A DNA stretch of 41,326 nucleotides. Source: Defluviitaleaceae bacterium (GTDB lineage: Bacteria; Bacillota; Clostridia; Lachnospirales; WQUN01). The stretch covers positions 1-41,326 of the forward strand of contig WRGY01000121.1 in the NCBI GenBank assembly GCA_009786925.1, given 5' to 3'. The stretch's first letter is position 1. Each line of letters starts with the position of its first letter. The notes beneath the pieces were generated by a model that saw only the letters and a program-made list of their open reading frames with translations, was not told the DNA's origin and ran no database searches. Below, piece after piece: positions 10,519-13,977 of the stretch. Made by a program: the position numbers and the translations under genes.

Positions 10519-11402
10519 GCCGCATCTCCTATCATTTCATATTTTTTGCAATACGCAAACGCTAACGCTCCCGGCCCTGCATGTGTACCGATTGCCGCGC
10601 CTACCTCTGTTATTGGGTTGTCGATTTCCATGCCGAGTGACAGCTCTGTATTTGCTTTAAAATTAACCGCGTCATCCTCACTTAGGATATGGCCTATGCT
10701 TAGGTTAACGTTTTTCTTTTCTTCTTGTAATGCGGCTACGATTCCCTCTTGAATCATTTTTAAGGCATTCTTTTTTCCGCGTACACTATCGAGCTGTGAG
10801 ACCTGTCCATCCTCCAGTTGCAAAATCGGTCGCAGTCCTAAAATCCCGCCGACAAAAGCCGTCGTAGGTCCGATTCGTCCGCCTCTTTTAAGATACTCCA
10901 CAGTGTCCAGAGTAAAGTAGACACGAGTAGTTTTAAGGATTTTCTCTGCATAAGAAACGGTTTTTTGCAAATTAAAGTTAGCCTTTTGCATTTTTAGTAT
11001 TTCGCGCAATATCAGTCCCTGACCTACACTCGCGCTCAAGGTGTCGATTACTTTGATGACACTGTTTGGATAGTCATCGCTTAGGATTCCTGCGGCGAGT
11101 GTCGCACTATTGTATGAGCCGCTCAATTTTGAAGAAATTGTGATAACAACAAGGTCTTTGCCCGATTCCAGATGTGGCTTCATTACATCTATATAATCCT
11201 GCGGGCTGGGCTGGGCTGTTTTTGGAAAAACACCCTTTTCTTCTAACAATCGCTTGAAATAATCTTCTTTTGTGATATCAACGCCTTCTTTTAAATGACC
11301 ATCATCCTCAAATGTGATGTAAAAAGGAACTACCTCTATGTTGTACTTTCTAGCTTCCTCTTTTGTAAAGTCACAACCGCCGTCCGAAATAATTTGATAC
11401 AT
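10515..11402 (-). CDS. DegV family fatty-acid binding protein (copy 2)
   Basis: A 295-residue DegV/FakB-type protein (YQIISDGGCDFTKEEA, TAQPSPQDY, TISSKLSGSYNSA, DTLSASVGQGL, TVEYLKRGGRIGP, ILGLRPIL, GTHAGPGALA). Such proteins bind long-chain acyl groups. It differs clearly from copy 1 at 5299-6183, for example in TAQPSPQDY in place of TQVTSHRYM, so the two probably bind different lipids. The start at 11402 has GAGGAGG upstream. It is coupled to ygjV and is divergent from an ECF sigma factor; the shared upstream DNA carries an 18-bp inverted repeat that looks like two opposed ECF-type promoters. Confidence 0.93.
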   Translation of the reverse strand: MYQIISDGGCDFTKEEARKYNIEVVPFYITFEDDGHLKEGVDITKEDYFKRLLEEKGVFPKTAQPSPQDYIDVMKPHLESGKDLVVITISSKLSGSYNSATLAAGILSDDYPNSVIKVIDTLSASVGQGLILREILKMQKANFNLQKTVSYAEKILKTTRVYFTLDTVEYLKRGGRIGPTTAFVGGILGLRPILQLEDGQVSQLDSVRGKKNALKMIQEGIVAALQEEKKNVNLSIGHILSEDDAVNFKANTELSLGMEIDNPITEVGAAIGTHAGPGALAFAYCKKYEMIGDAA

Positions 11403-11431: not shown

Positions 11432-11500
11432 CACTAATATAGACAGAAAAAAAAATGGTTGGTTGCAACGGTTGCAGAAAAATTTCTGTCTATATTAGTG
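11432..11500. promoter_or_regulatory. Symmetrical divergent ECF-type promoter pair in a perfect 18-bp inverted repeat
   Basis: The 18-base sequence at 11432-11449 is repeated exactly as its reverse complement at 11483-11500. In the centre is the palindrome GTTGCAAC (11462-11469). Rightwards, TGCAAC (11464-11469) is followed 17 bases later by TGTCTA (11487-11492). Leftwards, TGCAAC (11467-11462) is followed 16 bases later by TGTCTA (11445-11440). Both resemble ECF sigma promoters (AAC-type -35, CGTC-like -10). One points at the sigma factor gene, the other at degV-ygjV. As RNA the repeat could also form a long hairpin. Assignment to the adjacent sigma factor is inference. Confidence 0.65.
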
Positions 11501-11514
11501 AGGATGGTGATTTA

Positions 11515-12078
11515 ATGGAAGATGCAGAAATTTTGGATATGTACTTTAGCAGAGAAGAAGCGGCTTTATCTGAAACAAAAACAAAATACGGCAGACGACT
11601 GTTTAAAGTATCAAACAACATACTACACAGTTCGGAAGATGCAGAAGAAAACGTAAACGATACTCTTTTAAAAAGCTGGAATGTAATCCCACCGAGCCGC
11701 CCCTTAATGTTTGGCGCGTTTTTGGCAAAAATCGCTCGCAATCTTTCGCTAAACAAATGGGAAGCAAAAAATGCCGCAAAGCGCGGCGGTGGAGAAGTGG
11801 GTATAATGCTCGGGGAACTTGAAGAGTGCATACCTTCAGCGGACAACAGTCCGGAAGAAGCCCACGAAGCCCTTGTCGTAACCGATACAATAAACATATT
11901 CTTAAGTACACTGGACAAACCTGCAAGGGTGGCATTTATACTACGCTACTTCCACAGCGAAAGCATAAGCACGATAAGTACACGTTTCAAAATGAGCGAA
12001 AGCAAAATAAAATCATTATTGTTTCGCACAAGAAAAAAGCTGCGCACACATCTCGAAAAGGAGGGAATAACAATATGA
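11515..12078 (+). CDS. ECF-type RNA polymerase sigma factor
   Basis: A 187-residue sigma-70 family protein of ECF size. Region 2 runs over about residues 20-90 (GRRLFKVSNNILHSSEDAEENVNDTLLKSWNVIPP, with FLAKIARNLSLNKW at its end). Region 4 is at about 125-185 (LDKPARVAFILRYFHSESISTISTRFKMSESKIKSLLFRTRKKLRTHLE), a clear helix-turn-helix. The ATG at 11515 is chosen because an earlier in-frame ATG at 11455 lies inside the promoter repeat; AGGATGGTGA precedes the chosen start. It is coupled by ATGA overlap to a small membrane protein that is a candidate anti-sigma factor. It probably controls itself and degV-ygjV through the adjacent repeat. Confidence 0.92.
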   Translation: MEDAEILDMYFSREEAALSETKTKYGRRLFKVSNNILHSSEDAEENVNDTLLKSWNVIPPSRPLMFGAFLAKIARNLSLNKWEAKNAAKRGGGEVGIMLGELEECIPSADNSPEEAHEALVVTDTINIFLSTLDKPARVAFILRYFHSESISTISTRFKMSESKIKSLLFRTRKKLRTHLEKEGITI

Positions 12079-12284
12079 AAGAAAAGAGACTATTGCTTTG
12101 CATAGGCGAAATAAGCGACATATTTTTAGAAGAGGCCGAAACCGCAATTTTTGCAATATCAAAGCGAAAAAAAATCGCTAAGTATGGCGCGTTGGCCGCT
12201 GCCGCTGCTGTTGGCATCGCACTCACGTACAAATTTGTACTCTACCGACGCGCAAATACACAGGTTGTAGCTAAAATCGCATAA
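12075..12284 (+). CDS. Small single-span membrane protein, candidate anti-sigma factor
   Basis: A 69-residue protein starting at the ATG that overlaps the sigma factor stop (12075-12078), with GGAGGGAATAACAAT upstream. Residues 1-35 form a charged helical stretch (MKEKRLLLCIGEISDIFLEEAE, then a basic KRKKIAK). Residues about 37-56 are one hydrophobic helix (YGALAAAAAVGIALTYKFVLY), and a short tail follows. The order, coupling and topology (cytoplasmic N-terminus, one membrane span) suit a minimal anti-sigma factor or membrane anchor for the sigma factor. It has no recognisable zinc-binding anti-sigma domain, and there is no sequence proof of function. Confidence 0.75.
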   Translation: MKEKRLLLCIGEISDIFLEEAETAIFAISKRKKIAKYGALAAAAAVGIALTYKFVLYRRANTQVVAKIA

Positions 12285-12357: not shown

Positions 12358-13977
12358 ATGAATTTATCTAAAGCGATAAAAGCATTCGCAGGATTATTAT
12401 TTCTGCCTGTGCTTTTATTTTCTTGTGGCGGAAATCAAACAGTAGACGACAGTCAAACCTTACTCCCATTTCGTAATGGTGTGTTTTCCGGTGTTAGTGT
12501 GGGTTATCTTGGTGACATACATGTAGAGGTCGAAGTTGCGGATGGTCGGATTGTGCGTCTGGATGTCACGCAACATGAAGAAACCCCGGGCTTTGCTTAC
12601 CCTACTTTTGAAATAATGCGGGCTGCTATTACTTTTAATCAAAATACCGATGTTTCGTTGGTTACAGGTGCTACGTCTACGTCCAGAGCTTTTAGGGAAG
12701 CGGTGGAGTCTGCCTTGGTACAGGCGGGTGTTTCGCTTGCACAGCTTAGACCCGGTGCTACGACCGCACCCGGTATCGCTGTGGCCGGTGGTGTTGATGT
12801 TGCGCAGGCACCCGTTGCTGTTGTTACGCTTGATACTTCTTTGTCTGCGGCGGCATTGTTGGCTTTGCCTGTTTCTACAGCGAACTTTACGCCCGGGGAT
12901 TTTATTGTAACTGTTCCCGGTTGGCAGGAAGCACCTATGACGGTGCAGGTTTCTTTTACAGAAAATCAAATCGTTGGTATAGAAATTCTTGACCACAATG
13001 AGTCTATGTATGGCTCCGGCTGGGGTTTTAGGGCAATGCCCGCTACACAGGACCAGATTCTTGTGAGGCAATCTACACAGGATATCGACGTGTTTACCGG
13101 TGCGACTATAACAAGAAACGCCATTGTAAACGCTGTGGAATACGCCATTGTACAAGCCGGTGCAGACCCTGTGCAGTTAGTACCACAGTTTATTACCGAA
13201 CCTTTGCCCGGCGATAGGTTTATCCCGGGCTTTATAGAAGTAAATGTACCTGCAAATACGATGGATATATATGGCAATCCACTCACAGAGGGTGCAATGA
13301 GGATGCTGTATAGCCAATATGCCGACATGAATCTACGCCTGTCCTTTGGAAGAAACGAATTCCATTTGCATAGTGGTGGTGGCTTTGGTCTGGGTCAAGG
13401 TAATGGCGGCCATGGAGAGTCTGTATATGGAGCGGGCGAAATTGGCGGAGGTGCATTAGGCGGATGGTGGTTTAGGCAAGTGGTAAACCATCAGGTAAAC
13501 GATAGGCAATCTACACAAAACATAGACATCGTTACAGGTGCTACTATGTCTGCGGCCGCGATTATTTGGGGTGTTGAACAGGGCATGATTGCGCAGGGCG
13601 CAAACCCGACACAAATCACACCGATAACATATCCGCGTGTACAAATCCACCGCAATCCATCCGGAGAATCTACCGACCCGTTTTTTGAGCCAAGTATATA
13701 TACAGTGACAGTAAATGCATGGGGTGGCCCTATGGTAGTTAGGGTGACGCTCGACAGGACTAATGTACGTCGTATCGAGGTGCTGGAGCATAACGAAACT
13801 GAGTCTTTTTGGGATATGGTATGGGGTGCCGGTGCAGACCATATAATGCGCAATGGTATTCTGCTTGCGGGTGCGAGTGGGCTTGATGATGTTGACCTTG
13901 TTACCGGTGCTACTGTTTCGTCAGCCGCCTTGGTCGAAGCTGTTCGTTTAGCTATGGAAGAAGCGTGGATAAACTAA
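12358..13977 (+). CDS. Lipoprotein with four FMN-binding (flavinylation) repeats
   Basis: A 539-residue lipoprotein (lipobox FSC, C23) with four FMN_bind-type repeats. Each ends in a covalent flavinylation motif TGATx(S/T): TGATST with acceptor T108, TGATIT with T252, TGATMS with S398 and TGATVS with S521. Repeats 1, 2 and 4 have the full beta-rich domain ([71 protein letters not shown]). Repeat 3 has lost much of this and instead carries a Gly/His-rich stretch at about residues 335-370. Such proteins (like Listeria PplA) receive FMN from ApbE and carry electrons outside the membrane. An ApbE gene lies at 16242-17234. The ribosome binding site is GGGGG, and a chemoreceptor follows 16 bases downstream. 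Confidence 0.92.

Follow-up and report, generated by a model that had tools for sequence, protein, structure and literature searches.

A perfect inverted repeat between an ECF sigma factor gene and degV-ygjV in a Defluviitaleaceae bacterium reads as two divergent promoters with a common -35 element

What is the function of a long, perfect inverted repeat that separates a gene for an extracytoplasmic function (ECF) sigma factor from a degV-ygjV gene pair in Defluviitaleaceae bacterium (assembly GCA_009786925.1)? The repeat lies in contig WRGY01000121.1, which was analysed over a stretch of 41,326 nucleotides (hereafter, the window). Its two arms (Table 1) are complementary at 18 of 18 positions and are separated by 33 nucleotides, as given in a first-pass annotation; this is the sole perfect 18-bp inverted repeat with arms up to 120 nucleotides apart in the window, and none was found in 60 dinucleotide-shuffled windows under the same limit. 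That annotation read the repeat as two back-to-back promoters, in which TGCAAC is followed in each direction by TGTCTA after 16 or 17 bases, with one copy facing the sigma factor gene and the other facing degV-ygjV. Both elements were located, and a search of the whole 2.28-Mb assembly for TGCAAC-N15..18-TGTCTA gave exactly two matches, in opposite directions and both at this site, while the reversed control pattern gave none. The start codon of the sigma factor gene (ATG at 11515) lies 22 nucleotides past the -10 of the plus-strand element, and that of degV (ATG at 11402) lies 37 nucleotides past the -10 of the minus-strand element. Each promoter has its own -10, CTGTCTATA, placed in one arm, and the two share a palindromic -35 that occurs once in the window. 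Further copies of the arms elsewhere in the genome are partial, with two or three mismatches, and are not above the reversed control. On these grounds, and on the comparisons given below, the repeat very probably consists of two overlapping promoters that face in opposite directions and are read by the adjacently encoded ECF sigma factor.

Table 1. Coordinates of the repeat, the predicted promoter elements and the flanking genes in the window.
Feature	Position	Strand	Sequence or remark
Left arm of inverted repeat	11432-11449		CACTAATATAGACAGAAA; its minus-strand reading corresponds to the predicted -10/start region of the degV promoter
Right arm of inverted repeat	11483-11500		TTTCTGTCTATATTAGTG; predicted -10/start region of the sigma promoter
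Palindromic -35 common to both predicted promoters	11462-11469		GTTGCAAC; two overlapping TGCAAC
Predicted ECF-type promoter of the sigma gene	11464-11492	+	TGCAAC 11464-11469, N17, TGTCTA 11487-11492
Predicted ECF-type promoter of degV-ygjV	11440-11467	-	TGCAAC 11467-11462, N16, TGTCTA 11445-11440
ECF sigma factor, 187 aa	11515-12078	+	regions 2 and 4
Single-TM protein, 69 aa, putative minimal anti-sigma factor	12075-12284	+	overlaps sigma gene by 4 nt
DegV (FakB-like fatty-acid-binding) protein, 295 aa	10515-11402	-	
YgjV-like 7-TM membrane protein, 206 aa	9898-10518	-	overlaps degV by 4 nt

The sigma factor matches the Sigma70_r2 (30.2 bits) and r4_2 (35.3 bits) profiles, both past their cut-offs, as well as TIGR02937 (68 bits, cut-off 42.9); sigma regions 2 and 4 are the only ones present, and its length is within the range of about 180-200 amino acids typical of ECF factors. 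The open reading frame listing places its start at 11455, inside the repeat, and the orthologues together with the ribosome-binding region place it at 11515. In the window, the sigma operon is directly followed by a gene (12358-13977) for an RnfG/PplA-like lipoprotein that has three FMN-binding domains; in the relatives that were examined, this gene was not seen behind the sigma gene. On the other side, the DegV (EDD) domain is matched over the full length of DegV (242 bits, cut-off 27; TIGR00762, 252 bits), which places the protein in the DegV/FakB superfamily. Among solved structures, the closest to it is 3nyi, a protein that binds fatty acids; the DegV score of 134.8 lies below the NCBIfam FakB1 equivalog cut-off of 350. 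The name YgjV is weaker: the Imp-YgjV family (PF10688) is matched at 22.0 bits, under the Pfam gathering cut-off of 23.5, and the protein may at best be a distant relative. Its structure model has seven helices (pLDDT 85) and gave no significant match in the PDB; a PnuC-like fold (probability 0.94 at E 0.15, TM 0.42, VIA Z 7.8) was considered and set aside, as this level is common for helical bundles. The host genome encodes FakA.

The degV upstream regions of other genomes were scored against the 12 motif positions of the first-pass annotation, taken as given. In 22 genomes, including that of the window, 10-12 of the 12 positions matched; shuffled upstream regions had a mean of about 8/12, and at most one in 100 attained the observed score. 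All 22 genomes with the element before degV-ygjV carry an orthologous sigma factor (at least 52% identity), and the element is absent (9/12 or fewer) from all seven genomes that have degV-ygjV and lack an orthologous sigma factor (G077, G081, G082, G084, G085, G090 and G095), among which G084 and G095 have only a paralogue of 41-48% identity. This co-occurrence (22/0 versus 0/7) gives a Fisher p of 6e-7, a value that overstates independence because the genomes are related MAGs and the threshold of 10/12 was chosen once the data were known. Borderline elements (9/12) were found in G036 and G031, where degV is about 50% identical and ygjV is missing, and a second degV-ygjV copy in G071 (L164) has no element. 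The first-pass annotation had also suggested looking before orthologous sigma genes in related genomes, and 14 sigma upstream regions (13 besides that of the window) matched at 10-12 of 12 positions; a few sigma orthologues (L190, L198 and L199) have no clear element upstream. The nearest relative is Defluviitaleaceae bacterium Co191P1bin4, with 89% identity in YgjV and 87% in the sigma factor. As a separate observation, degV-ygjV in sigma-less genomes is preceded by other elements, as if the regulator had been swapped: a palindrome of roughly 50 nucleotides at L161, and at L153 and L168 blocks of TTTGAC/AATCAAA that look similar to FabT-type boxes. At L168 (5001-6379), a tandem pair of ygjV copies follows one degV.

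A long perfect dyad between divergent genes is also what would be expected of an operator, on which a dimeric repressor or activator would bind both arms and control both genes, and the palindrome before degV at the sigma-less L161 is in keeping with such a design. The loci at which the two transcription units are not adjacent argue against it. In several genomes (e.g., G021, G024, G033, G035, G019 and G058), the sigma gene and degV-ygjV lie on separate contigs; the degV operon keeps one element, and in most of these genomes the sigma gene also has one. These loci have a single asymmetric, oriented two-block element with 16/17-nucleotide spacing and no dyad: across 13 non-divergent degV loci and seven non-divergent sigma loci, the element matches at 10-12 positions when read toward the gene and at 7-9 when read away from it. 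In G047 and G071, degV, ygjV and the sigma gene run in one direction as an operon, with an element at degV and none at the sigma gene. Such behaviour fits a promoter and neither a dyad operator nor a hairpin. Moreover, at most divergent loci the arms diverge while the -35 and -10 persist, and the presence of the element follows the sigma gene, so that an operator is very unlikely. The footprint, the co-occurrence and the single-copy sites at non-adjacent loci together lend strong support to the two divergent ECF promoters, the self-activating sigma factor and the nearest target degV-ygjV that the first-pass annotation predicted.

The pattern conserved across sites is YGCAACC, a T-rich spacer (16-17 nucleotides between the hexamers) and CTGTCTATA, with conservation peaking at GCAAC and TGTCTA. 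It also bears on the possibility that housekeeping sigma-A recognizes the arms, with TATATT, which follows TGTC in each of them, as the -10; across loci, however, TATATT is variable, and conservation is highest in GCAAC and in the TGT/TA of TGTCTA. In addition, no sigma-70 promoter-like match was found at the site, and the presence of the element depends on the ECF gene; housekeeping promoters are therefore an extremely improbable explanation. The GT needed to complete the palindrome GTTGCAAC is found only at divergent loci and is not kept at single promoters, which identifies the palindrome as two overlapping -35 elements. A paralogous sigma family (about 48% identical; L208 and L205) seems to have a promoter of its own, GCAACC-N-CCGTTA or CCGTCA, in which the -35 is that of the window element and the -10 differs. 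In-frame TGA codons had been flagged in some relatives; within the aligned reading frames that were checked, none was seen except in a broken sigma paralogue of G007.

Most relatives have either no inverted repeat or an imperfect one. Much of the identity between its arms is accounted for by the promoter consensus occurring twice, and identity beyond the consensus is only weakly above expectation. Concerted change of the arms by template switching was considered and not adopted, as the difference in identity (0.58 within versus 0.49 between loci; 20/720 permutations) is only suggestive at six loci. The transcribed repeat could fold into a very stable RNA hairpin (-28.9 kcal/mol, z -8), and a bidirectional terminator or attenuator could be the functional element; the first-pass annotation had raised the hairpin as a second control layer. 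The repeat is, however, positioned upstream of both genes, and the starts of both predicted transcripts fall within or past the arms, with leaders that show no unusual folding. No terminator-like signature (a G+C stem followed by a T run) was found at 11432-11500, and the hairpin is not conserved, whereas the promoters are. A hairpin as the functional element thus has hardly any likelihood, and the second layer is not supported either: since the repeat consists of two promoters with a common -35 and is not conserved, the hairpin is probably incidental.

A profile was built from 30 sites, none of them from the window. The two window sites rank first and second genome-wide, the degV promoter being the best (E 2e-8) and the sigma promoter following (E 8e-5), in a test that is not fully independent because close relatives contributed some of the training sites. 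The next matches in this genome (E 0.14-0.18) give no further regulon, one that was inspected being located inside coding frames, and no site precedes its FakA gene; the convincing sites in the window's own genome are the two reported here only. Relatives have further sites: Asp23-FakA in G035 and FakA in G021 are preceded by one, as is a FabG-like/DUF2229 operon in three genomes (G005, G021 and G033), and in G015 both the DUF2229 gene and a secreted LCAT-like hydrolase (lipase) have one upstream. These extra sites score 20-23, whereas 146 control stretches reach no more than 16.5, and a FakA site in G024, at 15.3, does not exceed that level. In the sigma-less G018, the DUF2229 orthologue is retained and the site is absent. 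On contig C31 of G021 (L246, L252), degV-ygjV and the FabG-like/DUF2229 operon, which has an ECF site of its own, are within a few kilobases of each other and away from the sigma gene. The extra sites support a predicted lipid regulon in the relatives, with fatty-acid and lipid metabolism as its theme, in agreement with the membrane-lipid response that the first-pass annotation had anticipated.

The gene that follows the sigma factor suggests how the latter might be held inactive. In most orthologous loci, a partner transmembrane protein gene overlaps the sigma gene by 4 nucleotides, and the partner proteins of this sigma subfamily are 61-81 amino acids long, with the motif IGxIxDxFLEEAE and one transmembrane helix. 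Partners of the paralogous subfamily (about 48% identical) usually have 292-755 amino acids, with the same N-terminus, a transmembrane helix and a large outer part, and the short and long N-termini match each other in hhalign with 97% probability. The 69-amino-acid protein is probably a minimal anti-sigma factor that lacks an outer sensor, because its N-terminus matches those of long anti-sigma-like proteins and the extracellular part is absent.

The following mechanism is proposed from the sequence comparisons. A membrane signal would free the sigma factor from the small transmembrane protein, and the holoenzyme would bind the common -35 facing either one way or the other, with mutual exclusion. 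One promoter would drive the sigma gene and the 69-amino-acid membrane protein in positive autoregulation, and the other would drive degV-ygjV; sigma synthesis would rise, as would the FakB-type fatty-acid carrier and its 7-TM partner, and the acyl-chain supply to the membrane would be altered. What the sequences show are the DNA elements with their conservation and orientation, the joint occurrence of these elements with the sigma gene, and the gene families; sigma-dependent transcription, the anti-sigma role of the transmembrane protein and release from it, the signal, competition at the -35 and the lipid phenotype are all proposed steps.

Autoregulation of an ECF factor together with a divergent target is of an already known kind. 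SigW is linked to membrane fatty-acid synthesis genes, and SigW/RsiW, SigM, SigX and SigV of Firmicutes share with the window system a sigma factor of regions 2 and 4, a gene adjoining that of a transmembrane protein and an autoregulatory promoter in which the -35 is of the AAC type and the -10 of the GTC type. The window sigma factor is nonetheless far under the NCBIfam SigW equivalog cut-offs (44.9 versus 209; 38.5 versus 243.1), the transmembrane protein of its family has just 61-81 amino acids and almost no extracellular part, and the predicted target is a FakB/YgjV operon across a common -35. Bidirectional housekeeping promoters, in which a symmetric common -10 yields divergent transcripts and polymerase binding is mutually exclusive (Warman et al., 2026; PMC12825309), resemble the site in their symmetric DNA and in the divergent transcripts predicted here; the common element at this site is, in contrast, the -35 rather than a symmetric -10, and the factor is an ECF sigma. 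The system also resembles FakA/FakB in that DegV belongs to the FakB superfamily and fakA is under the same element in some relatives; whereas fakB4 of Streptococcus pyogenes is controlled by the MarR repressor FabT (PMC10138225), control here is predicted to be by an ECF sigma factor. No report that connects an ECF sigma factor with DegV or with fatty acid kinase came up in a search of the openly accessible literature. What would be new, judging from these comparisons, is the FakB-type operon as target, the common -35, the minimal anti-sigma factor and the habitat.

As to habitat, the named records with a close YgjV are MAGs from the guts of higher termites, the one exception being a Streptococcaceae MAG (Xx448_bin8) whose source is unknown. 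The named termite MAGs with YgjV come from P1 samples in 35 of 37 cases and from P3 in two; in the source study, which gives the sample codes, 164 of 589 MAGs came from P1, a highly alkaline segment (PMC7024585). The excess of P1 among YgjV carriers has a binomial p of 1e-17, which is inflated by relatedness, by sampling and by the fact that Defluviitaleaceae are mainly from P1. By their labels, the carriers belong to several groups, among them Coriobacteriia, Erysipelotrichales, Turicibacter and Lachnospiraceae, and alkaline or membrane stress is therefore a plausible signal. SigW of Bacillus subtilis is activated by alkaline shock (PMC5358783). Taken at its widest, the proposal is a tentative one, which we hold possible yet would not presume: a previously undescribed ECF pathway with a sensor-less minimal anti-sigma factor would control fatty-acid kinase components and a 7-TM protein, adjusting the membrane in the alkaline P1 segment, while sigma and effector synthesis compete at the common -35.

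The locus offers a concrete predicted regulatory circuit for an uncultured and abundant termite-gut lineage, made up of a single sigma factor with a single promoter code and a few lipid targets. If true, it would represent an ECF route to the control of fatty acid kinase. The common -35 would provide a natural case of two ECF promoters that are expected to exclude each other, which bears on the balance between autoregulation and output, and the link with P1 suggests how gut Firmicutes may fit their membranes to extreme pH.
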